Shown: positions 12,442 through 36,400 of the stretch, piece after piece
How the letters are laid out: each line of letters begins with the position of its first letter
Numbering within the stretch: position 1 is the stretch's first letter
Origin: Arbacia lixula
Taxonomy: Eukaryota; Echinodermata; Echinoidea; Arbacioida; Arbaciidae
Direction: 5' to 3'
NCBI GenBank assembly: GCA_963669155.1
Contig: OZ022596.1
Coordinates: 8,390,302-8,454,301 of the forward strand
DNA length: 64,000 nt
The notes under the pieces: model-generated
Databases searched by the model: none
What the model saw: only the letters and a program-made list of their open reading frames with translations
Told to the model about the DNA's origin: nothing
Position numbers and translations under genes: made by a program

Positions 12442-15400
12442 GTAAGAATGCATTGAAGTCATAATCACTAAGCGTCATTGATGCTAATTGCATAATGATC
12501 TGAAGTATACATGTGAAGAACTCATTTGCAAAAGGGGTTAGATCCATTTTTTATCAAATTTGATTTTTTTTTTGTCTCAATGTATAGATTTGAAGTAGCT
12601 CCATAAGAGGATGCCAAAGAAAGGTTGAAATTCCCATTAAAAATTGAACAAAAATGGCAGTGAAAAATCACTCCTTTTTAAAAAGGGTTTAGATCCATTT
12701 AAGTTTGTTTGCAACATTTTTTGGAAACAAATATTTTAAAAATATGAAGACAGGTAGATTTCTTTTATGCCCAATTTTATGTTCACATGATAGGGTAGTA
12801 CTGTATATTTCGCATAAGAATTTTGCCATATGGGAGAAGAAAAAAAGTAGATTTTCTCAGAATGGTCTAAAGTGGATCTAACCCCTTTTGCAAACCAGCT
12901 CTTCTTGTATACATGCATCATGACAAAGTGTATATACACTTCGAAAGTCAATACTAGATGGTAGAAAAAAATGTTGACACTTTTGAACAATTATTTTCAA
13001 AACGTTACAACTCTAATCAAGCTGAAATTTACACATCATAAAGTCATAAGTTGTCACATTTTTAAAAACAGGGTTTTATACATTTGATCAATTATCATGT
13101 CTGTATAAAATAATCCTTAGAATCTTTCATGAAATGTTCAATTTTTGAGAAATTTAGACAAATTAGAGGATGTGAGTTCCTATCATTGTAGTCTTATGGT
13201 TTGTTTTTTATCATTCTCTTGCACAGTTGTCAGGCACAGACATTTAGTTTTTGTGATGTGACTTTGATGATGACAAAACTCTGTCATTATTTCTTTGTAT
13301 TTTTACTTTTATGTTATCGTTCTTTTTCATAGTTCTCCCAGTATTAAGGTAGCGCCAGGCACAGGCATCAAATCTTTGTCATGTGACTTTGATGAAGACA
13401 GAACTCTGTCATTTTTTTTTTGTATTTCTCCTTTTGTTCTTGATTGTCTCTCAAAGTTCTCCCAGCCAAGGCAGCTCTAGGCACAGACATCAAATCTTTG
13501 TCATGTGACTTTGATGAAGACAGAACTCTGTCATTTTTTTTTGTATTTCTCCTTTTTTTTTATTGTCTCTCAAAGTTCTCCCAGCCAAGGCAGCTCCAGG
13601 CACGGGCATTGAATCCTTGTCATGTGATTTTGACGATGACAACGTCTGCAGCTGGCGGCAGGACAGAGCGGATGATTTCAATTGGCTGACCGGGCAGGGA
13701 GAGACGGAGACGGAAGACACAGGTCCTGAGCAGGATCACTCTGGAGATGGTGAGAAAAAAATATATATTTTAATACCTCAATTAACCCGTTGCTCACAGT
13801 TAGATTTTCTGGCATTATGAACCCTTGTCCAGTAATAATGACAAATATTGCCAGGGAACTGCAGTCACCAAAAGCGTGTGGATTGATTTGAAGGTTTATT
13901 CATAGCCTGTCATTTATTTTCCATGCAGCAGATTGAGTGGGAGTTGAGTTGCTCATTATCTAAGTGGAGAAAGGCAAGGCCGCAAATATACAGGGGTTCA
14001 GTAAAGAGCAGGTTAACAGCTTTGAAGGTATGATTGGCTTAGCAGAATTAGGAGCCTGGTATAACTTGTCCCCCAAAAGACATCAAACTTCACTTTTTTA
14101 ACCCTAAGTGAAGTACTCTGTGATGATATTTTGATGAAAGATGAATATATTTATTTATCAAGTCTTTTGTAAACAGGGTAGCCCCATCAGTGAGCACTGT
14201 TCTCCCTAGAGGCCCTGTGTACAAATAACACAATAATACATAGTAACATGAAGATAGATCTTACAAGCAAATGCTGTAAACCAAAATGCAACATAGATCA
14301 ACCAATGTAGAACATAACAAAAGAAGAAGGTGGACCAATGCTTCCACATGCATCACACAAGCAAAACCTCATAAATTGATGACTGCAAATCCTGTGTACC
14401 TTTTAAGAGATTGTAGTTCTCTAAGCACAAAGTCCTAATCTACATTAACAAAAGCAAAGCACAACTGTGTAATCTCTGGCAGATTATGTGAGGAAAGTGT
14501 CGATTCTGTACTTTGAAATCCGGCTGCATGTTCACTTCCAATAGACGCAAAGAACTGATTAAAAGCATTTTGAATGAAATCCCGGGAGGCAGAGTCCTGT
14601 GATGTTGGCAGAATGGTTGTGTCCTAATCATGGCACTCATAATCCTGACCACTACTTATTTTTATTATGATGTGTGACATCTGCAGTTTGAACATTAACT
14701 GCGATGTGTTTGAATAGGAATGATAAAACCGTTGTGTGCATTATAATGACAAAAAAGAAATGTACGAAAGCAGAGGGCATGAGTGACATAGCCTACCAGC
14801 ACACTACGGAATAGAACGTTTTGAAACTGACCCTTGTAATTAGATGACACATATCCGGAGCACAATCCACATAAACATGATAATAGGATTGTGAGTTATA
14901 TGGGGCTCTTATGTCATAATGCAACGTCGAAGCTGTGATGTGTTTAAAATATTTCAAACTCTTCATCAAAATCTACATTATCATTCATTACTGAATTTAA
15001 TGACATCCAACTCTCTTCAGGCTACTATGCCTACATCAAGGCCGCAGACCAGGCCCCGGGAGACGTCGCCAGGCTGCTGTCGCCCTCTGTTGACACACGC
15101 AACACAACCAACCTCTGCGTGACGTTCTACTACCACATGCGGGGCAGCGGGATGGGTAGGCTCAATGTGAGATGGGAGACGGAGTCGGGATCACAGGAGC
15201 TTATCTACACCGTTGGAGAGAGAGATATGGGTGATGTCTGGAATGAGGCATCAGCTAGCGTTGCTGTACCTGATGACACAATCTACTGGGTAGGTTAACC
15301 CTATTAGTACCAAGCCAGGAAAAGCCTATTGACTTATTACACCTTACATTCACCTTTGATACTGATGGGGTTAACCCTCTCAATACCAAGCCAGGAAAAG

Positions 15401-18400
15401 CCCATTCATTCATTACACATTCCATGCACCTATGGTACTGATGGGGTTAACCCTCTCAGTACCAAGCCAGGAAAAGCCCATTGACTAATTACACCTTACA
15501 TGCACCTTTGGTACTGAAATGTGTAGGAGACAACAATGAAACCTCTGTGGAGAGACCACTTTATTTCTGTTTTCACATAGTGGGAGTTTATTTCCAACAA
15601 TCCTAATCAAATTTGACAAATGATTGAACCTGTATTCAGACGCTAGTTAACAATCAGAATTTTGATTTACAAAGATAAGATTTCAACTTTAGCTGATGGG
15701 AATCAAACTCATTGAGAATCTCATTTAGCACATGAACAGGTCACGAGTTATGCGTTAAGTCGTTCGTAACTTACGAACAGCTTTGTGAAACATCTCGTAG
15801 GTGATTAATTGTGTCTCATTTACTGAGTATTACAATTGTGACATTTTTCCAGTCATATTTTCTGCCAAGCTATAATCATACAATGTACATCTAATCTGAC
15901 ATAACTACAACTAACACTATTCTAACTTCAACCTAGTAAACATACAAATAAAACAAAGCTGTGGAGGCGCATTGTTGGTCAAGTACGCAGATACGCCGGC
16001 TTTTAGTATTGGTCCATTTATGAGCAGATTTCGGTTAGTGCGCTGCACTGACCATAGGGTATTTAAAACCCCCACTACATTTTTGTATCACACCTGACGA
16101 AGTGTTGCCACGGCGCATGAAACGTTGTGATCTTTTCGATTCCATTTACCATATATTGCGAGACAAACGATTATCAGTAGCCATTTATCCGCAATGAGTA
16201 ACATATTTAGCATTAATGTTTATATATTATTCATAAGTTTCTTGCAGTACATTATCATATAATCTCAACTATAACATCCCTATATTAATGAGTTGATTGC
16301 CTTCTTTCAACGTCCAGGTTGTGTTTGAAGGCATACGTGGACAGACTGAATATGGTGACCTTGCCATCGATGACATTCTTGTTTTTGATGGATATTGCCT
16401 CCCGTCAAGTAAGTCTAATTTACTGTACTTCTTCTTTGTGGAACAAGTATAGGTTTTTTGTGTATTTATGATGCTAAATTGGAACAATGGTGTATATAAA
16501 GTTAATTTTAAATTAAATTTTAATAATGAATATATAATATTAAAATTAATTTTCATTTGTTGTTTTTATCATTGTAGTGACTTTACTGCAATATTATTAT
16601 AATAAATAAAAAAATGATACAAGAGAATTAGGATGGATAAAAAGTAGTTAGATAAGGTGTTATCTGAAGCCTGAATCCATATATCTTATCATCAATGACA
16701 AGAATAGAACATGAGGTATATGTGTTTGAAGCGCTACAATTACGCACCAGGCATATGTTTAAAAATCTATGATTAAGCGCTAGGCATATGTTTATTCAAC
16801 ACTGAATAAAAACATGGGCATTGTGTATTAGGCACTCTAACTAAACAATAGACATATAAGAGTTAAACACTAGAATGTAGCATATGTGCCATATACAGGG
16901 TATGCATTTTCTCTCTACAGGAACATGTGACTTTGAGCTTGGTTTCTGTGCGTGGCAACAAGCCACGACGGATGATTTTGATTGGTCGAGAGACATGGGG
17001 TCCGATGTGCCGCATGGGGATACTGACTTCATAGACCACACTACAGGCACTGTGTCAGGTGAGATTAGCATCAGTGTTAGCCATGGGATTACTGACTTCA
17101 TAGACCACACTACAGGCACTGTGTCAGGTGAGATTAGCATCAGTATTAGCCATGGGATTACTGACTTCATAGACCACACTACAGGCACTGTGTCAGGTGA
17201 GATTAGCATCAGTATTAGCCATGGGATTACTGACTTCATAGACCACACTACAGGCACTGTGTCAGGTGAGATTAGAATCAGTATTAGCCATGGGAATACT
17301 GACTTTATAGACCACACTACAGGCACTGTGTCAGGTGAGATTAGCATCAGTATTAGCCATGGGATTACTGACTTCATAGACCACACTACAGGCACTGTGT
17401 CAGGTGAGATTAGAATCAGTGTTAGCCATGGGGATACTGACTTCATAGACCACACTACAGGCACTGTGTCAGGTGAGATTAGCATCAGTGTTAGTCATGG
17501 GGATACTGACTTCATAGACCACACTACAGGCACTGTGTCAGGTGAGATTAGCATCAGTATTAGCCATGGGGATACTGACTTCATAGACCACACTACAGGC
17601 ACTGTGTCAGGTGAGATTAGCATCAATATTAGCCATGGGATTACTGACTTTATAGACCACACTACAGGTACTGTGTCAGGTGAGATTAGAATCAGTGTTA
17701 GCCATGGGATTACTGACTTTATAGACCACACTACAGGCACTGTGTCAGGTGAGATTAGCATCAGTGATAGCCATGGGGATACTGACTTCATAGACCACAC
17801 TACAGGCACTGTGTCAGGTGAGATTAGCATTGGTATTAGCCATGGGATTACTGACTTCATAGACCACACTACTGGCACTGTGTCAGGTGAGATTAGAATC
17901 AGTATTAGCCATGGGGATACTGACTTCATTGACCACACTACAGGCACTGTGTCAGGTGAGATTAGCATCAGTGTTAGCCATGGGGATACTGACTTTATAG
18001 ACCACACTACTGGCACTGTGTCAGGTGAGATTAACATCAGTGTTAGCCATGGGGACACTGACTTTATAGACCACACTACAGGCACTGTGTCAGGTGAGAT
18101 TAGAATCAGTATTAGCCATGGGATTACTGACTTCATAGACCACACTACTGGCACTGTGTCAGGTGAGATTAGCATCAGTGTTAGCCATGGGATTACTGAC
18201 TTTATAGACCACACTACAGGCACTGTGTCAGGTGAGATTAGAATCAGTATTGGCCATGGGATTACTGACATCATAGACCACACTACAGGCACTGTGTCAG
18301 GTGAGATTAGAATCAGTATTAGCCATGGGATTACTGACATCATAGACCACACTACAGGCACTGTGTCAGGTGAGATTAGAATCAGTGTTACCCCTTTCAG

Positions 18401-21400
18401 TGCCAAGAAAAAATCCCTCTGTATTGTAAAAGTGTGTGTATTACTTGTGGATATTTGCATTGATAGCACATGAAGAGTTAACCAATTCAGGACCAGGGCC
18501 CATGAATATATGTTCTGGAGTTTTAACTTTTGTATATTGTATGTATTACGTGTGGACATTTGACTTGATGGTGTATAAAGGGTTTATTGCCATATGGTAC
18601 AATCCCAGTTGGTCCACTCACCATTTCGTCTACAAGGAACCCCTGAAAAATGCTCTTTTAGATTAAAATACTGGGTTAACTTATCAACAACTCTAATCTA
18701 CACCATAACCTCAACCGTTAACCCCATCCAGACCCCCTACCCTAACCCCTAACCCATACATATCAGCAAGTGATGGTAGACAAAATGGTGAGTGGACCAA
18801 ATGGGATAGGACCAAATGGCAAATCAACGTATAAAGAGCTAACCAATTTGGGACCCACAACAACAAATAGATGTTCGGGGGTTATAACTTTTGTAGTAAT
18901 TTTGAAATAAAGGTTCATAACAAATATATCTTCAAAATGGCATTGTGCTAGAAAGATTGAAATCATGCTTTCATTGTACATGTAGCTCTTAATTATGTAT
19001 GTTGTATTACTTTATCTTCATATACAACAAAATGTATGTTTTGTTTTATGAAAAAATATCTGATTTAATAAAAAACGGCCTTTTTTCGTCCAGGTCACTT
19101 CATCTATGCGGACCACTCGTTGCCCCGGCAACCCGGAGACAGGGCCCTCCTCTATAGCAGTTCCTTTGATGCCACGCCCACCGGCGACTGCATGAGCTTC
19201 TGGTACCACCTTGCCAGTGAGGGCGCTGTAGGCACGCTGCGTGTCTGGGAGCGGATTAACGGGACTCTGGTCGGACCCTACTGGACGTCATCTCCTGGCA
19301 TGCAGCCAAGTTTCTGGATGAATGCTGCCCTCACAGTTAAGGCTGAGTCCAGCTTTGAGGTGAGCCAGTATATGACATATACGTTATCTGTATAGAGATA
19401 AGCACAATTTCTGTGGGGTTTGGAATGATACTAGTGTGAACGCACGGATTGCCATCCCACAAATAAGGAAAAGTCACCCCTGATGTAGCACGCAGTCACA
19501 ATTGTTTGCAGCCTGCGTCCACTTTTGGTCTTGTGTGCTAGTGTATATGAGAACGAAAGCAGACGTAACTGCGAACGAAATCGAAATGCTACATGTACAG
19601 TAAAGCCTGAGATCAAATGCACAGTGATTGCAATCAAATGCAATCAGCTCCATACATTGAATGCTGTCTGACTGCAATACACTGCAAACAGCTCCATACA
19701 TTGACTGCAGTCTGACTGCAATAAACTGCAATCAGCTCCATACATTGACTGCAGTCTGACTGCAATAGACTGCAATCAGCTCCATACATTGACTGCAGTC
19801 TGACTGCAATAGACTGCAATCCACTCCATACACTGACTGCAAGCTGACTGCAATAGATTGCAATCAGCTGTGATGTTGATCTCAGGCCACACTGTACTAT
19901 CCTGTCCCTTTGATAATTATGATATTTACATGTACAGTGAAATCGTCTGTAGTGGCCACCCAAGGGAAACACAAATTGCGGCCTTTACAGACAAGTGGCT
20001 GCTATAAACAGGTTCTTTAACACTTGATCTCTCTCCGGGGGAATTGTTTTAGCGGCCACTATAGACAGGTTGGCTGCTATAGACAGGTGGCCACTAAGAC
20101 AGGTTTGACTGTACATGCCTATATCTCTATACTGCTACATGTCATGTCTGTCTGAAGGTGGTGCTGGAGGCAACAACAGGTGCTACTCCAGCATCTTGGC
20201 TGGCTGTGGATGACATCTCCTTTGACCGGACCCCATGCAAGCATCCAGGTAAGATGCTCACAGTGACTGCACACATCAGCAACTTTCTGTGAATTCTGAG
20301 GGTAGCTTGCTTATTTATTATATGCATTATGTTTTGTATTGATTTATTATTGTTGTTATGTATTGTACATGTTTATCTGAGGGTAGTTTTCTTATTTATT
20401 ATATGCATATTGTTTTGTATTGATTTATTATTGTTGTTATCTATTGTAATGTATTTTTTTATCCTTCAGGGCCCTCGGTGACAGCAGTTTTACAACTGGA
20501 GAGGCCACCCTGCTTAAATAAAAATGGAAATAAATAAATAAATAAATAAATAGTAGGAGGAAGACAACTGCTTATTGGGTTGATGTTAAATACATTTAGT
20601 TACCTTGTTTTATAAACATTTGTTAATAAGTGATAATTATGAAATAACCTTGCAAATCAAATTATTTATTTGATTTAATGTATTTCTGGAATGAAGCACA
20701 ACTCCTAGATAATCATCATAGATTATTGGCTCACACACAGTGCCTAACTATATCATTAGCAGCTCTCTACAAATATGCAGTGGTTAATGTTAAAGATTGT
20801 TACTGGTCAGCATATCTCATTGCCAAGACAGATTTCTCTACAGAAGCATTTTTAGTCAGATTGATGGAGCACGTCAATTTTTGTGTAAAAATTTTAAAAA
20901 TAGTATGGTACATTTTCTCCAGGGAACGTATTGATATGGTGACCATTAATCCTGCAGTCAACTTTTTTCTTTTTTTTTTAAATATGATTTTTTTAATGCA
21001 TATTTGTAATCTGAAATGTTTGTGTTGAGAAGCAACTAGCACAAATATGATTTTTTTTTTGTCAAGTGTTTTTTGTAATTAGTCTAAAATATGAACATTT
21101 TTGGGAAAAAAAATGACACCTTAATATTTTTCAGCAATGTGATAAAGGGGCATGACATGCTCATTTGTTTGATATCAAATTCGTCATGAAAGCACAAATA
21201 TTTTATAAGATGCAGTAAATTTTATGATGTTTGGGAAGTGTCAACTTTTCTTTGAATTTCCTGGGTGTATGTAAACTTATGGCCTCAACTGTATGATCTT
21301 GCAATTGGCTACATATCATGGCTTTATTTGTCAGCATTTAGCTGAAGTGAACCCACAAGCATGACATCATTGCATTATACAGTGAAACATGTCTATAGTG

Positions 21401-24400: not shown

Positions 24401-27400
24401 CGCTGGGTCGAAGGTCAACTCTCGGTGTCCACATCTAACTCTTTCCTCCTTGTTCTTGAGGCCACGGATGGGACATCAGGAACCATCGCCATTGATGATA
24501 CCTTTATAACGCAGACTGGATTATGCAATGGTATGTCATCCAGTGAAAAAAACTACAGTACTCTGGGGGATGTATCCCTGGCTGTGCTTGAATATCTTCC
24601 TCCACCCCTCCCTTACCCCTTCCTCTAAACCACAAAAGAATCACACTTTCTCTTTCTTAGACCACCTAGCTTCTTCTTTTTCATTATATGTATTTAAAGG
24701 GTTACTAAATTAGAAAAATAAGTTCCCACTAATCTATGTAAAATTATCCACTAAAAACGAATTTCACTTTTGTTTCCCGCAATAAAGTCTCATTTTGATA
24801 AAAATTTGAAAAAGCACACACCTCCAAGTGACGTCAGAAAAGTCAGTGTCAAATGCATCAAAATGCCATAAAAGACTCCGCTGGTTAACTTTGATTGTAC
24901 GGACGTCAACAGTAATTTCTAATAGCCTTTTTTTGTTTTGTATGCAAATTTTAATTACGCCGTTCAAACAATACGCTACCATGGGGAACCCCAAAGCTTG
25001 CCCGAGGTTTAGCTGCGTAGCAACAACTAATTGATTCAAAGTGCATTCCATCCATTGAATCTGAATGGCATGATACAGGTAAATGCAATAACGCGTTGCT
25101 ATGCAATTAGGGGGAAAGTTATGAATACATTACGAAAATGGTATATTGTTGACTTCCATCCAATCTAACTTTAACAGCCGAGTTTTTTAGATATAACTTA
25201 TGATGAAAGACAATGCATCTATTGCAACACATTTACTACGGGAACCTGGTATACCCGGCTCCCAAGTGTCCTACTTAGAAACGGGAACATACATGTAAGT
25301 CTTCATATGTATTAACATTTGTCTTGCTTGAGATACGAGTACAATGGCATGTGACTTTGAAGATGGTTGGTGCTTGTATGAGCTTGTGAGACAATGCGTC
25401 TATTCTAATTACACATTTGTGGTCTGTGATTCCTGGGATTGCTTCACAAATAAGTTATATTCTAATTACACATTTACTCTGGGAACCAGGTATACCCGGC
25501 TCCCAAGTGTCCTACTCGGAAACAGGAACATAAGTCCTCACATGTACATGTATTTATTTGTTTTGTCCCAGATACGAGTACTTTGGCGTGTGACTTTGAA
25601 GATGGTTGGTGCTTGTATGAGCTTGTCAGACAATGCGTCTATTCTAATTACACATTTACTCTGGGAACCAGTTGTACCCGGTTTCCAAGTGTCCTACTCA
25701 GACACAGGAACATACGTCCTCATGTGTACAATGTATTAACGTTTGTTTTGTCCCAGATACGAGTACATTGGCGTGTGGCTTTGAAGATGGTTTGTGCTTG
25801 TATGAGCTTGTAAGACAATGCGTCTATTCTAATTACACATTTACTCTGGGAACCAGGTAAAGCCAGCTCCCATGTGTCCTACTCAGAAACAGGAACAAAA
25901 GTCCTCATATATACATGTATTAACATTTGTTTTGTCCCAGATACGAGTACTTTGGCGTGTGACTTTGAAGATGGTTGGTGCTTGTATGACCAGGACAATG
26001 AAGATGATTTGGATTGGGAGCGAGACCGTGCTAGTGATGCTTCCAGATTGACCCTCATCAACACAGATCATACCACAGGAACAGGTGAATAGGATTGACT
26101 CCTCCTGTGCCTGACAAACTGCTAGGCCCCATTGCATTAAGCTTACTATTAATGGTAACTACCGTGGAAACATCACTTGACAGCCAATGAAATGCAAGGT
26201 TTCCACATGAATTGCCATCGGTAGCAAAGTTACCATCAATGGTCAGTTTTATGGTACAGGACCCTGGTCTATAGACTTAACATTTATTGGTTGTGCCAAA
26301 GTGACACAAAAAGTTTTCATAATAATCATAATGGTAGTATGGTTTAGTATAGCAAATATTCTAACATTATGTATATGTGCTTCAAAATGTTATGGGCGAT
26401 TCCATGGTTACTCACGTTACAAATCATGAAACATGAGTAACCGACACATTTCAACGATTTTCTAGGAGCGTAACAAAATTTCCCAAGTTTTGTTTTTATA
26501 CCAAAATTTGTATTCAGACTGCGTACTTTGTTGTGATAAAGAGATGTTTAGTTCCTATCAGTAATAATGGAGTTACAGCTCCAAGTATGAGTCAAAGTGT
26601 CTCCAAATGTAACGAGAGTAACCGTGGAATAGCCCTCATACAAAAATGATATCATTAATGATATACATGGAGTATTTATGTGTCTGCTTAATTGCAATTA
26701 GTTGGGAGAATAAAACTCGACAATGAAGAAGTGTCCCAAATAGCTGTTAGAGAGAAAGAGAGAGACAGATAGAGAGATGGAGAGAGAGAGAGATAGATAG
26801 AGAGAGAGAGAAAGAGAGCTATAGATTTAAATCAGACATATGCCAGACATATGTTATAAAAAGAGATCTCCAGAGACTGTTACTTGAAGAAAAGTGCAAC
26901 ACGCTTTGATAATATCAATAACAATAATAATAATACATAGACTTTATATAGCGCACTTTCCATCTTAATCAGATGCTCAAGGCGCTTCAGAGCAACTGAA
27001 AGAGAGAGAAAGAAAATACAATACAGGTATGAACTTGTATGTCAAAAGCACCATTATACAGGTATGTTGTTAGGTTGCCCTTGAAGGTGGTCACTGACGT
27101 CAGGGTTTTCAAACTCTGTGGAAGAGAATTCCACAGGGCTGGCCCTGCATGAGCAAAGGCCTGTTCTCCCCACGATCAAGCAGTAGATGTGTCTTTGTTA
27201 TGCACTTAATGGATAAAGATAACATCTAAAAATTATACATTTCTTCTTTTGTATCTGCGCAAATCAGCCGATGGCTACTACATCCACATCGGTACCACCT
27301 CCGCAACTCTCGGAAGCACTGCGCGTCTCAACAGCCCCCTCGCTCAGCCGTCGGCGAGACAGTGCCTGACGTTCTGGTACTTTGCGGTCAATCAGCCAAA

Positions 27401-30400
27401 GGGCACCCTCAACGTCTACTCACACCGGTCTGATGTCATGAACATGGAGGTTCTGGAGTGGAGGCTAAGCCAGAGCCAGTCCTATCAGTGGCTTCAAGGG
27501 ATGGTGGAGCTAACGCAAGTTCTGGATTACAGCGTAAGTTTTTATGCAATGGTGCCAAGAGTCTTTCCCATTTTACAGCCCGAGGCCAAATTGCATATAG
27601 GCTATCAAGTATTGTAACTTACCATCAATGGTGACTACCATGGCAACAGCTGCAATGGTGAGAGTTCATTGGCTGTTGCCATGGTAATTACCATTGATGG
27701 TAGGTTACAATAATCGAAAACCTACATGCAACATGACCCAGAGATGTAACAATCAGGTTCTGGTCGCTGGATACAACAACTTGCTTTACGCTGTTAATGA
27801 TATTTGGTCATACAGGAATGGTAGAAAGGAGAGGTTTTCATACATCAATGACCATTTATCTTAAATCAGTCATCAAAGATTATGACTGCTAACTTTCTCA
27901 ATATTTTCTTTTTGGTGCAAAGTGGAGATTTATCAGTCAAAAGTGAAAAAAAAATGTTTTCATCAAGTGCTTTTTAGCTCTAATTAGAATCGACAGGCTT
28001 TCTCAAAAGCATTTCTAAGGACTGGGACATAGATTTCCTATGAATTCAGAACTTATAACCATATTTGGCATGAATTATTACTACTTAACATTTGTGTATA
28101 AGATTGTCATTCCATCAATGATGTCTTCCCTCTTGTTTCTGTGACAGCTATAATTTATAGATAAAACAATTGATGAACAATTGATGAACAATTTTCTCAT
28201 TATTTGGTCTTCACAGCTGATATTTGAAGGTGTCTATGGTATAGACTCCGGCACCATTGCAATAGATGACATAGGACTGATTGATGGGTCATGTCCAGGT
28301 AAGCTTGGTTTCCCTTCTTCATTTGCATCTTATCGTAACAAACAAAATATTCTCCTTTTTTCTCTGTCTTCTTTGTAATATGTTACCCTCCTCCTGTTTC
28401 TTCTTAATCTTCCTACATCATTTCATACTTTATATCGCACTTTTCTTCTCCTCCTCTAGCTTCTTATTTTTGTCTAACTTTAAAACAAATATTATCATTC
28501 TCCTGTTCCTCCTCCCCTTCCTCTTCTTTCCCTCTTCATGCTTTTCACGGTTGTTTCTTTTCTTGAAAAAATTTCCCCTCATGCCTTTCTGCAATTAGAT
28601 TCATGTACACTGCTGTACACTGCTGTGTCTAGTATTGAATATGCTATTGTGCATAGCATCAAGCTAATAAGATCATTATTATGTTATAGATCCTTGCAAA
28701 CTGCTTTTGTGTTCATTAACTGCAATTAAGTGTCATGATTTATTGTCTCGCCCACCGGAGGTGAAGGCGAGACTAAGGGATCCAAATGGCGTCCGTCCGT
28801 CGTCCGTCCGTCGTCCGTCCGTCGTCCGTCCGTCGTCCGTCCGTCGTCCGTCGTCCGTCCGTCGTCCGTCGTCCGTCGTCCGTCGTCCGTCACAAATGTT
28901 AAAGTTTACCTGCAAGACTCTCTTATGATCCATAACTTCACATGGGTTGCTTGGATTACAACCTAACTTGGGTCATAGATGCACTGGGGGTACCTTCATG
29001 TTATGGTGGCGTTGGAGGTCACAGGATAAGGTCAAAGGTCATTTGAGGTCATACGTTAAAGTTTACCTGCAAGACTCTCTTTTGACAAATAACTTCACAT
29101 AGGTTGCTTGGATTACAACCTAACTTGGGTCATAGATGCACTGGGGGTACCTTCATGTTATGGTGCTGTTGGAGGTCACAGGATAAGGTCAAAGGTCATT
29201 TGAGGTCATACGTTAAAGTTTACCTGCAAGACTCTCTTTTGACAAATAACTTCACATTGGTTGCTTGGATTACAACCTAACTTGGGTCATAGATGCACTG
29301 GGGGTACCTACATGTTATGGTGCTGTTGGAGGTCACAGGATAAGGTCAAAGGTCATTTGAGGTCATACGTTAAAGTTTACCTGCAAGACTCTCTTTTGAC
29401 AAATAACTTCACATAGGTTGCTTGGATTACAACCTAACTTGGGTCATAGATGCACTGGGGGTACCTTCATGTTATGGTACCGTTGGAGGTCACAGGATAA
29501 GGTCAAAGGTCATTTGAGGTCATACGTTAAAGTTTACTTGCAAGACTCTCTTATCACACATAACTCATCACATGTTGCTACAATGGCAATCAAACTTGGA
29601 TGATGGATGCACTGGGGGCACCTGCATGTTATTGTGCTGTAAGAGGTCACATGATAAGGTCAAAGGTCATTTGAGGTCATACATTAAAGTTTACTTGCAA
29701 GACTATTGGTGAAGGCTTCCTAACTTGTGCACAGAATTGTGTGAGCATGTGTGAGCATTACTGATGTAGATTTAGGCAAACATTACTCATGCACATTTAT
29801 GCAAATTTATTCAAAGTCACTATTTTGCACCTGATTTTGATGTTGTCTGTTTAAAGTTGCTTATTTGTTTGTTTCAGTTCTCTTTTGCGTAGCAACGGAG
29901 ATCGCGATATTTCTGGTTATTTTCGCAAGTGGGCGAGACACAATATTGCTAATGCCTTGTTAATACAGTCAAACCTGTCTTAGTGCCACCTGTCTATAGC
30001 AGCCAACCTGTCTATGTAGCCACTAAAATAATTCCCCTGGAGAGAGATCATGTGTTAAAGAACCTGTCTATAGCAGCCACTTGTCTATAAAGGCCACAAT
30101 TCTTGTTTCCCTTGGGTGGCCACTGTATACAGGTTTCACTGTATTTCTTTTTCCCTACATCCAGCTACTTCAACCTGTGAGTTTGAGAGCCCCCTGCTCT
30201 GTGGGTAACTGTGATTAAGTGTCATGATTTATTAATAGTTCTTTTCCCTATATCCAGCTACTTCAACCTGTGAGTTTGAGAGCCCCCTGCTCTGTGGGTA
30301 ACTGTGATTAAGTGTCATGATTTATTCATGTTTCTTTTCCCCTACATCCAGCTACATCAACCTGTGAGTTTGAGAGCCCCCTGCTCTGTGGGTAACTGTG

Positions 30401-33400
30401 ATTAAGTGTCATGATTTATTAATAGTTCTTTTCCCCTTCATCCAGCTACTTCAACCTGTGAGTTTGAGAGCCCCCTGCTCTGTGGGTACAGGCAGGATGA
30501 AGCTGGTGATGATTTCAACTGGGACTGGGGCACGGGACCGACCCTGACACCAAACACCGGCCCCTTAGTTGACGTGACGTATGGCACCTCACAAGGTTTG
30601 TCCTCTCACTCGTACTTATCACCAACATCATCATCACTACCAAATCTGAGGGGTATTTCACCAAGCTGTTCGTAAGTTACGAACGACTTTACAAACGACT
30701 GGTGATCCCTTCTTGTGCTAAATGCAATACCACACTCTGTTCACTGAGAATCTGACTTAGCACAAGAGGGGATAACCAGTCGTTTGTAAAGTCGTTCGTA
30801 ACTTACGAACAGCTTGGTGAAACACCACCCTGCACAGATCCACCTAAGTCTTTTATGTGCAAGTTAGAGTAGAGGAACGTCAATAATATAACAATTCATT
30901 GAATTCATTGAAATGAGGGATTACTGTCCCCAGAGCGGTCACCTCCTGCTTATTGTGTGTGAGGTCTTATTTAATGAGTAGAACACTTTCTTACAAACTC
31001 AAGTTTGCTTCCCTTTTGTCTGACTGAGAATGGTGTGTATGATTTCAATGTAATGCTTATCATGACCTAAACAACTTAAATTACAAGTGGAATAGGTATG
31101 GCAAGTTATACCCTACAAGAAGAATGATAATGTAATATCATAAGTTAAACCTTTCACTATGCAAGCCATGATAAATAATGTCAATGTTGGCTAATTAATC
31201 ATTTTAAATTTGAAACAAATTACATGATTCAAAAGAGGATTTATTTTTTGTTGAACTTTTCTGCATGACATTTTCAGAAATAACAATCTCATAGAAAGTT
31301 ACAGCCATTGATATGCAACACATGTGTTCAGCCCAGATAAAAACTGCACCCTCCGAATTAACACCCCGCAGAGGGGTGTGTGGCCTACCATATACATGGT
31401 GATACATGTTTCAACGAACCAAGCCTGCCATCAATGTGATATATGAAATATTGGCAAATTTGTTGCAAAGATGTATGTTTGGCACTTAAAGAGCTAACAT
31501 TCTTTCATCATGTGTCATTAACTCTTAACTTGCCGGGGGGGGGGGGGGGGGTGGACACCTCTTGACGGAAAAAGAAACAGAGACAGACAAAGAAAGAGAT
31601 GGAGAGATGAGATTCTGGCATGTCGCCAACTGGTATAAATATGCGATGGAAAGAGAGAAGTGGAGAGACCATGCTGAAGCCTTCATCCAGCAGTGGATCG
31701 ACAATGGCTGAAGAAGACAAGAGACCATCTGCTTATTCTCCCTGTCATCTTTTGTACAAACTCTCTAATATGTCTCTTTCTCCTGACCATTTAAACCTCT
31801 CCACTGATTGTTAAGTTGGGGACAATATGGGCTCCTCTATCTTCTTACATTTTTCTCCTCTAAAAACATTGAATTTTTTTTACCTAGGCCACTTCATGTT
31901 CATTGAATCGTCGAGGCCTAATGAGAGGGGTGATACGGCTCGTCTGATTAGTCCACACATGTCACATGATCAAGACACCATCACCTGCTGGTCGTTCTAC
32001 TACCACATGCACGGACGGACCATGGGGCAGTTGGAAATTATTGTAAGTAGATATCATCAATTTTAAATCATAATGGATCACAATTATGTGACAACCGAAA
32101 GGTGGTTAATTGCAGTTGTACCTGTTAACCCGTTACTCACAAGTAGATTTTTAGCTTTGTGAACCTTGGTCCAGATAGAATGTTAAATTTGGCCATGGAG
32201 ATGCTTTGATAGGCATCACACTGAGAAGACATTTGCTAAACCTGTTTGTGGACAGATCGTTGTTGATGGTATTGCTTTTATAGCCCACTTTGGCTTGTAC
32301 CTGAACTGTCAACATCATATTCCATCATTTTTACACATGAATGACATCCAAGGCCTTGAGAGAAATCTAGCCACAATTTATGGTGATTAAGAAAATGTAT
32401 GGTTGTTTTACAAATGACAACAGATTTGTGCTTCTTGTGTTCCTTTTCCAGCCCAGTTTGGATTTTTCCTGACTGACAAATTGATTCTGTAATTACCTGC
32501 ACATAAATGACAGCCAGGGCTTTGAGAGGAATCTCGCCACAATATCTGGCATTCAGAGGAGTGTATGTACCTGCATCAATGGCTACAGGATTGCACTACA
32601 GTATTAACCTTTTCCAGCCCAATTTGGCTTATTTCTAACTACCATCATCATTATTGCATCAATATTTCAGATAAATGACAACCAGGGCTTTGAGAGAAAC
32701 CTAGCCACAATAGCTGGCGACCAAGGGAACGACTGGCTACAGACTGCCATCGAGGTCTACGGCAACGGCTATGAGCTCATCTTCAAGGGCGTGGTCGGGG
32801 ATGGGGAGGAGAGCGACATCGCAATCGACTCTGTTCAGGTCGTGGATAGAAGCTGCTGTAAGTACAGAATCAACCTTACACCATGCACATACAGTTGGCC
32901 TGAGATCAACGTCACAGCTGATTGCAATCTATTGCAGTCAGACTGCAGTCAATGTATGGAGCTGATTGCAATCTATTGCAGTCAGACTGCAGTCAATGTA
33001 TGGAGCTGATTGCAATCTATTGCAGTCAGACTGCAGTCAATGTATGGAGCTGATTGCAGTCTGCAGTCAAACTGCAGTCAATGTATGGAGCTGATTGCAA
33101 TCTATTGCAGTCAGACTGCAGTCAATGTATCGAGCTGATTGCAGTCTGCAGTCAAACTGCAGTCAATGTATGGAGCTGATTGCAATCTATATATTGCAGT
33201 CAGACTGCAGTCAAGGTACGGAGCGGATTGCATTTGGTTGCAATCACTGTGCATTTGATCTCAGGCTCAACTGTACATAGCAAAAATCTTGTTCTTCCGT
33301 ATGACCCTTGTACCTTAAACAGGGCCTTTTTACAGTAAAATTGAACAATATTTTGATTTCAAGTTTGCAACTTTTTTCTTTTTGTCATGTTTTCATTATA

Positions 33401-36400
33401 AGACGGAACATAAACTCAACATGTCATCAATAAATACAATTTAGAGCCATAATTGTGCCAATTTGACGAGGAAAACTGGAACTTAAATCTTTCCAACACA
33501 TTTTCAATTGGAGATTAAGTGATTATTTCACCTTTTTGTTATTTAGAAAATTCATTACCAAGGTGACACATACCAGTATAACTTATCAAAAAATATTGTA
33601 TACCTCATATCAAAAGATTTAGCCTATACATGCTGGATACAACAATAAAGTAGCAACCATCAAACTGTTTGTGTATTGTTACTTTTGCATTATAATGTGT
33701 GAACTTAGCAGGAAATTAAAACAACAAAATATACCACATTTACAGTAAATACATGTAGAGAGATGGAGCATTACTAATACAGTGAAACCTGTCTATAGAG
33801 GCCACCCAAGGGAAACACAAACTGTGGCCTTTATAGACAGGTGGCTGCTATAGACAGGTTCTTTAACACATGACCTCTCTCCTGGGGAATTATTTCAGTG
33901 GCCACTATAGACAGGTTTGACTGTACTTTGTGTCTGCCTTGTTTGTTTGTAGTGGGTTGTGACTTTGAGGATGACTGGTGCAGCTGGGAGAACAGTCAGG
34001 ATGATACCTTCAACTGGGTGAGGCAGATGGGACCCACGCCATCACCAGGGACGGGACCACTGCATGACCACACCCGGCAACACACTAGTGGTATGATAAC
34101 GGGATATGTTTGAGTGATATTGGTGATGATGTTGGAGGTGTAGGTGATGGTGCTGGTGATGGCGACAGTAATACGTATTGATGATGGTGAGGCAGATGGG
34201 ACCCACGCCGTCACCAGGGACGGGACCATTACATGACCACACCCGGCAACACACTAGTGGTATGATTAAAGGGATATGTGTGAGAGGTATTGATGTTTCT
34301 GGTGGTGATGGTGATGGTGATGATGTCAATGGTGATAAGTAATGACGATTGTAAGGCAGACAGGACTCGCTGCTACCAGGGACTGGACCATTACATGACC
34401 ACACCCGGCAACACGCTGATGGTATGATGATGATGATGATGGTGAGGTTGTTGGTAATGGTGGTGATGGTGATGGTGATGATGTCAATGGTGATAAGTAA
34501 GAATGATGAATGTAAGGCAGACAGGACCCGCTGCTTCCAGGGACTAGACTGCTTCATGACCGCACCCAGCAACATGTTGATGGGATGATGATGATGGTGA
34601 TGTTGTTGGTAATATGAAATGATTATAGTGATTTTGATGATGGTAGTGATGATGATGGTAATGGTGGTGATGGTGATGGTAGTGATAATGATGGTGATGA
34701 TGGTAATGGTGATGATGGTGATGATGATGGTGATGGTGATGATGATGATGGTGATGGTAGTGATGATGATGATGGAAGTGATGGTGATAATAATTGTGAT
34801 GATGGAAGTAATGGTGGGGTTGATGATAATCTTGGTGATATGTCAGAATTATGATGATTATGCTTATGATAGTAATTATAGTTATTATGGTGATTGTAAT
34901 AAATAATGATGAAACATGTAACATCATTGCTGTCTTCATGTTCTGGTTTTGCAATGCATGTACTAAAAATCAAATCATGATTTTCAGGCTACTACGTCTA
35001 CATAGAAGGTGACTCGCCACAATCGCCTGGTGATGTAGCCAAGCTCTATACAACTTTCTACTCCTCCTCATCAGCCAGCGAGATGTGCTTCTCTTTCTGG
35101 TACCACATGTTCGGCAGTGAAATGGGTACCCTTGAGCTATACAAGTAAGTCTCATTTTAACCAGTTTCTAACTGGGCTTTTTGACTACAAATTTTGACTG
35201 GGAAGTCATTTTGACAAAAGAATCAGATCATTGAAAGTCCGAACAAATTTGGGTAATTGATGAAGGAGTAATGGCTATTTGAAATTTGACCACTCCTTAA
35301 ATTGGCAACACATGTGAGCTGTCACAGGCTAAATCTCAAAGGGGAGGTTCACCAAAGAAACCTACAAATTGGTAAAGCACTTCATTTAAGTTATAAAGAA
35401 TTAGTAGAGAGCTCTAACACAGCACCACAGCCTTGTACCATAACACATTACTCATGGTCTGATTTTCTGATTTCTGAATCCTGGTCCAGTTAAGGTGTCA
35501 AAAAACTGCCATGAAACTGCAGGAAACAAAGAGCTATGGCTTAATGTGTCCTATATTTGATCTTTATTCATAGCCTGCTGTCTATTATCTGAACAGCAGA
35601 TTTTATGGGAGTCATGCTGCTCAGTATCTAAGTTTAAAAAAAAAGCCAGCTCGCATGTATGCATGCTCGGTTAACAACCGTTTGAAAACATTACACTTTC
35701 AATAATTCTTGTTCTCGCCTGACTTTACCTTTGCAAAGGTGTATGAAAGGTTGAAAAAAAAAATATTCAAAGTGCTTCTCTTTCAATCTTGTGTTGTTGT
35801 CTCCCAGGAACGAGAATGTGATTGGCACCGACGATGTGATTGGCATTGAGTCCTTAGAGCTTGTCTGGAGTCTGACCGGTCAGCAGAGCTCTGGTCAGTC
35901 ACAGTGGCTGGAGGGTAGGGTACCCTACACTAAGTCTGCACAGGTAGGTTGCTCAATGGTTAGTGTCCTCAATATTCTAGCAAGATACATTGAATTATAC
36001 CTAACTGTATAATAGAGTGCTGGTCTTGAGTCTAATTGGTCAGCAGCGCTCCGGTCAGTCACAGTGGCTGGAGGGCAGGGTACCCTACACTAAGTCTGCA
36101 CAGGTAGGGAGCTCAATGGTCAATGTAATCAAGATTCCAGTATGATGTATTCACTCATACCCATGTAAGACTACTGGTCTGGAGTCTGACCGGTCAGGAG
36201 AGCTCTGGTCAAACTGATTGGCTGCACGGCAAGGTACCATATACCACGTCTGCACAGGTAGGTAGCTCAATGGTTAGTGTCCTCAATATTCTAGTATGAA
36301 AGATTCACTTGGACATATGTTATACCACTGGTGTGGAGTGACCGGTCAGCAGAGCTGCGGTCAGTCTGAGTGGCTGAAAGTACCCAGACTACACAGGTGG

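Follow-up and report, generated by a model that had tools for sequence, protein, structure and literature searches.

A minisatellite over a MAM exon edge in Arbacia lixula carries 20 in-frame splice donors and is most likely passive

In what is predicted to be a very large MAM-repeat gene of the sea urchin Arbacia lixula, a tandem array lies over the 3′ edge of one MAM exon, and each of its 20 units carries an identical copy of the splice donor of that exon. The array is a real and striking repeat: most probably a minisatellite that lies passively over an exon edge, and one that serves well as a natural experiment on how donors are chosen. On the reading that we prefer, and hold to be probable, donor 1 is the one used and copies 2–20 are removed within the intron. 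We infer both the identity of the donor in use and the rarity of any use beyond it from position and from comparison with homologous junctions in the same region.

The window, that is the whole stretch of DNA analysed, is 64,000 nucleotides long (C21:8390302-8454301), and the features discussed are collected in Table 1. Tandem Repeats Finder reports 20.0 copies of a unit of exactly 69 bp at 17013-18392, with 94% matches and 0% indels; minisatellites are tandem arrays of nearly identical units of roughly 10–100 bp, and this array is one of them. A 20-fold repeat with a mean identity to the consensus of 96% is not a product of chance. Mean pairwise difference between units is ~6%, and variants are common to distant units. 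The sequence CAGGTGAGA is present 20 times in the array, with the G of its GT at 17059 + 69k (k = 0–19; the last at 18370), and CAG/GTGAGA (the stroke marking the splice position) is found in each of the 20 units. The preliminary description of this DNA had counted 20 donors spaced exactly 69 bp apart, which is borne out, and had taken the unit to be the last 69 bp of the exon, which is not: the unit consists of 46 bp of exon end and 23 bp of intron start, and thus straddles the exon–intron border. Its statement that all donors are equivalent and in frame, with a readable protein from each, holds good, there being no stop in any of the 460 codons that the array spans when read in the frame of the exon. 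It had also placed the acceptor at 19093; the AG indeed occupies 19092-19093, so that the next exon begins at 19094, and the exon set by donor 1 is 16921-17058. When the 607-Mb genome was searched with the unit, by a DNA search that skips simple repeats and very common words, one candidate place was scored, with 20 matches, all within the array.

Table 1. Features of the array and of the exons and introns around it (window positions).
Feature	Position	Strand	Details and basis
Upstream intron, 512 bp	16409..16920	+	Its donor read by eye; acceptor of exon 16921 scores 14.77
MAM N-half exon as set by donor 1	16921..17058	+	138 nt, phase 1-1
Minisatellite, 20 units of 69 bp	17013..18392	+	Unit of 46 bp exon end and 23 bp intron start
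Donor 1, GT of CAG/GTGAGA, predicted main donor	17059..17060	+	133 nt from Cys codon
19 further identical donors	17128..18371	+	G of GT at 17128 + 69k, last 18370
Predicted intron (2035 bp with donor 1, 724 bp with donor 20)	17059..19093	+	Acceptor of exon 19094 scores 12.6
Next MAM exon (HFIYADHSLP...)	19094..19359	+	MAM profile match, acceptor score

MAM halves recur along the + strand of the 264 kb around the array, as judged by a profile search in which the profile was grown from MAM pieces of the Arbacia lixula genome itself and 96 matches, with E values up to 0.05, were used. These matches make the gene, or cluster of genes, a MAM repeat of great length. Outside the window, C21:8.48-8.60 Mb and 9.80-9.92 Mb hold paired MAM matches that lie on opposite strands and score equally or nearly so, an arrangement that suggests a large inverted duplication. 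On the mitochondrial contig of the genome the genes run cox1, tRNA-Arg, nad4L, cox2, tRNA-Lys (nad4L and cox2 named by eye), which is the echinoderm arrangement. An amphioxus origin had been considered; no GFP-family match was obtained, and, as the control gave no signal anywhere, this carries little weight.

The homologous exons of this region indicate which donor is canonical. In 40 kept N-half exons, the array exon included, the donor lies 124–145 nt from the Cys codon, a range that contains donor 1; by arithmetic, donors 2–20 lie 202 to 1444 nt from it. A phase-1 GT near the end of the match was imposed in assembling these 40, and matches without such a GT were dropped, uncounted; the acceptor analysis used slightly different criteria and kept 42 N-half matches. 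The protein predicted from donor 1 (16921-17058 + 19094-19359 + the next exon) matches the Pfam MAM domain (PF00629) over positions 1-158 of 158 with 115.7 bits, against a curated cut-off of 26.4. With one extra unit the score is 108.8 bits (~7 bits lost), and with two it is 108.3 bits and the match is split into two stretches. The donor-1 product also aligns across the junction with the MAM domains of MDGA1 and enteropeptidase in solved structures. The canonical product, as predicted from these exons, is therefore that of donor 1, with a full MAM domain. Pfam THB and Arginosuc_syn_C were also matched on the read-through of the array; they were taken as repeat noise, as no stretch passes by itself.

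The array is not the only one of its kind. Tandem copies of the homologous donor are found near six of the 40 junctions (this one included), with 6, 2, 19, 2, 11 and 1 extra copies, respectively. At the five others a stop or a frameshift precedes each of the extra donors listed, some of which keep the same donor letters; of the six, only the 17013-18392 array can be read through. Since read-through of the five sister arrays meets stops or frameshifts, donor 1 must win there if the exons make protein, and this would imply, as the strongest internal argument available, that extra donors are ignored. One of the sister arrays (L040:784-1782, C21:8475085 onward) repeats a 78-bp unit across the end of a different MAM exon; each in-frame unit adds a stop to the read-through, and GT has become AT in 6 of the 11 extra donors. 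At 33958-34613, the end of a MAM exon is copied with its donor at +169 and +331 bp, out of frame.

Repeats on exon edges are, indeed, not rare in this gene region. Besides the six donors, copies occur near 9 of 80 acceptors, these having been chosen by a simple score and several of the copies being weak (69–76% identity) or lacking the AG. It follows that splicing must usually ignore such repeats. The background is of similar size: a copy within 4 kb exists for 244 (16.3%) of 1500 random 45-mers drawn from the region, and in 154 (10.3%) the nearest copy is at least 40 bp away, a distance that all six donors meet. Arrays with a period of 30 or more make up 11.6% of the region and hold four of the 40 donor edges. 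Because the rates of copies at donors and acceptors are near background, exon edges are not clearly favoured by repeats; that the present array sits on such an edge is roughly what would be expected by chance here. The divergence of copies from copy 1, compared between exon side and intron side, is 0.019 versus 0.062 in the array and 0.172/0.123, 0.200/0.000, 0.083/0.543 and 0.127/0.052 in four sister arrays (the 0.127 is inflated, since the 30 bp compared are more than the 23 bp of exon in the 78-bp unit, and is ~0.03 by eye); these five arrays show no consistent pattern.

Several further arrays are found in the window. At 30145-30488, a MAM exon start and its acceptor are repeated in a 94-bp unit, giving three nearly identical extra acceptors 94, 188 and 281 bp upstream, out of frame. 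Arrays at 25458-25989 and 13231-13641, with periods of 185 and 119 bp, also lie over MAM exon starts. A 157-bp tandem array occupies 28898-29704, and two others of that period begin at C21 8349352 and 8462338; judged by period alone, the three are perhaps one dispersed repeat family.

Exon definition is expected where introns exceed about 200–250 nt, and the donor nearest to the upstream acceptor is then preferred. The introns flanking this exon are of 512 bp and at least 724 bp, and recognition by exon definition would thus be expected. The 20 donor 9-mers are identical, with a score of 11.97 each (above 37 of the 40 sister donors, the array donor itself being among the 40), so that donors of comparable strength compete; since all score alike, position decides, and donor 1 is expected, any leakage being confined to donors 2 and 3. 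We thus envisage that a 69-bp segment across the 3′ edge of the MAM exon and the start of the intron was duplicated in tandem, giving, within a giant MAM-repeat gene, a minisatellite with a perfect donor in each copy. The acceptor whose last base is 16920 would pair with the nearest donor, at 17059, to give the 138-nt exon and an intact MAM domain, and copies 2–20 would leave with the 2-kb intron. Occasional use of donor 2 or 3 would insert 23 or 46 residues, in frame, after DHTTGTVSG and before HFIYAD, which could be tolerated as the unit happens to be 3n long and free of stops. In the available text of PMC9225289, only the upstream donor was used in minigenes that combine two identical strong donors with flanking introns of 365 nt, and 60% of human alternative-donor events of near-equal strength favour the upstream donor; these minigenes had two donors rather than 20 and are not from an echinoderm. 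Thus, of the two outcomes that the preliminary description had offered, a single winning donor with the rest passive is the better supported, by the sister junctions, the fit of the donor-1 product to the MAM domain and, as far as that text goes, the minigenes. Two observations count, suggestively, against pure passivity. All 20 donors are intact, whereas the 78-bp sister array has lost the GT in 6 of 11 extra copies, and changes between units avoid exon-side nonsynonymous and donor positions.

The other outcome was a graded splice rheostat, in which several donors are used, MAM proteins with 0–19 extra 23-residue repeats are made, and the exon side and donors are under selection. We consider this unlikely. 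It can equally be put as a working length dial, and is then just as doubtful: a declining series of donors would lengthen the protein in 23-residue steps at one place in the MAM domain, with the exon half and donor selected while the 23-nt linker drifts. The open frame and the 20 intact donors fit such a scheme, and the equivalence of the in-frame donors stands. The argument that an open frame without indels indicates selection does not. A stop results from only 0.7–1.4% of the single changes that the unit can undergo, and the probability of no stop among the 18 changes observed is 0.77–0.88. Indels are at 0% in 16 of the 38 arrays in the 264 kb (this array included), whose periods include 3n, 3n+1 and 3n+2, and a period of 3n has a prior chance of 1 in 3. 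As the absence of stops and of indels is expected, the frame is no evidence of selection, and that argument was rejected.

There is, nevertheless, a hint of constraint on the exon side, and it is for this reason that a rheostat remains among the readings. Variable columns are fewer in the exon half than in the intron half (8 of 46 versus 10 of 23; Fisher P 0.039). The preliminary description had proposed to compare synonymous and nonsynonymous change between units; five of the eight exon-half changes are synonymous (P 0.02–0.04), as constraint would have it, and two of the ten in the intron half, as expected by chance. No unit differs in a stretch of 19 bp around the donor (P 0.008; the stretch was picked post hoc), nor in the donor 9-mer (P 0.054). 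Exon-side residues or donors are damaged by 3 of the 18 changes, against an expectation of about 60% (P 1.6e-4 to 3.3e-4, on a crude null, as units share ancestry and the partition including the donor was partly chosen after seeing the data), and by 0 of the 11 singletons. Together these counts are suggestive of exon-side residues and donors being spared. Against use of many donors, units that are translated should be constrained in their intron-derived 23 nt also, where synonymous changes are at chance level, and a whole-unit test of constraint gives P 0.04–0.10; exon definition, moreover, favours donor 1.

The clustering of variable columns was set aside as evidence for selection, since control arrays cluster too. 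In a first permutation the array gave P 0.006, and two 157-bp arrays 0.006 and 0.012, the 89-bp and 94-bp controls being out of register. In a position-only scan with end units trimmed, P was 0.070 for the array and 0.162 for units 2–19; one of the nine control arrays (89 bp, P 0.005) fell below 0.05 and clusters more strongly. The controls kept 6/7, 4/5, 7/8, 4/4, 4/5, 10/10, 7/9 and 124/134 units, the 89-bp array was represented by 23 in-register units of ~33 copies, and the 94-bp and 122-bp arrays were left out. Regulated RNA structure was likewise rejected, as folding was hardly better than that of shuffled sequence: three units gave z −1.12, with 24 of 200 shuffles as good, and the exon with the first two donors gave z −0.78, with 46 of 200 as good.

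If U1 were bound at all donors and the intron-proximal one used, the last donor would win, giving a 1449-nt exon and an insertion of 437 residues. The donors are identical and strong, a downstream preference was found in vitro (Reed and Maniatis 1986, as cited in PMC9225289), and, in the available text of PMC9225289, about 60% of human alternative-donor events without a strength filter favour the downstream donor, in all four intron classes. However, this rule would lead to stops or frameshifts if applied to the sister arrays, the length of the exon would be far outside the sister range, the MAM match splits already at two extra units, and the minigenes described there used the upstream donor; we regard this outcome as improbable.

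An assembly artefact in the number of units, of which one assembly was examined, is more improbable still, given that private variants (11 singletons) follow no periodic order along the units and that 1.4 kb is short for long reads. Least probable of all is stepwise (recursive) or micro-exon splicing within the array, with CAG/GT serving as acceptor and donor, or ACAG/G giving 57-nt introns and 12-nt exons: CAG/GTGAG has the letters of a recursive splice site, and the ACAG/G of the units (17082-18392) are moderate acceptors (best 6.67–7.78, among the highest in the intron, where 4.32 marks the 5% point for 80 gene acceptors), but a recursive site joins a good 3′ splice site directly to a donor, and CAG/GT scores as an acceptor only 1.74 (first six units), above just 2 of the 80 gene acceptors, while a 57-nt intron would be short.

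A literature search of open-licence papers returned none showing a repeat array that multiplies a splice donor, and nothing on such sea urchin MAM genes. In its head-to-tail units, their modest divergence and the sharing of variants between distant units, the array resembles intronic or exon-edge minisatellites (VNTRs); it differs from them in that the unit carries the exon end and the donor, so that a donor is multiplied in frame. In the model of intron gain by tandem duplication, the copied segment holds AG/GT and comes to be spliced as a new intron within an exon. The AG/GT duplicated here is a strong donor (11.97) and a weak acceptor (CAG, 1.74). Tandem duplication is common to the array and to intron gain as presented in the available text of PMC4974935; unlike the latter, the array copies an existing exon edge. 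Exons 16921-17058 and 19094-19359, with the next, give a full MAM domain (PF00629), although extra units would depart from that domain by inserting 23n residues at one place. A further parallel is with alternative 5′ splice sites under exon definition, as in the minigenes of PMC9225289, so far as they are described in its available text: identical donors compete, with flanking introns of more than 250 nt. The array has 20 donors instead of two, is natural and in frame, and its donor use is predicted. It is a natural 20-fold version of the two-donor minigene test, with identical donors at fixed 69-nt steps, and the junctions in its transcripts would reveal directly, for an animal, how donor choice declines as the exon lengthens.
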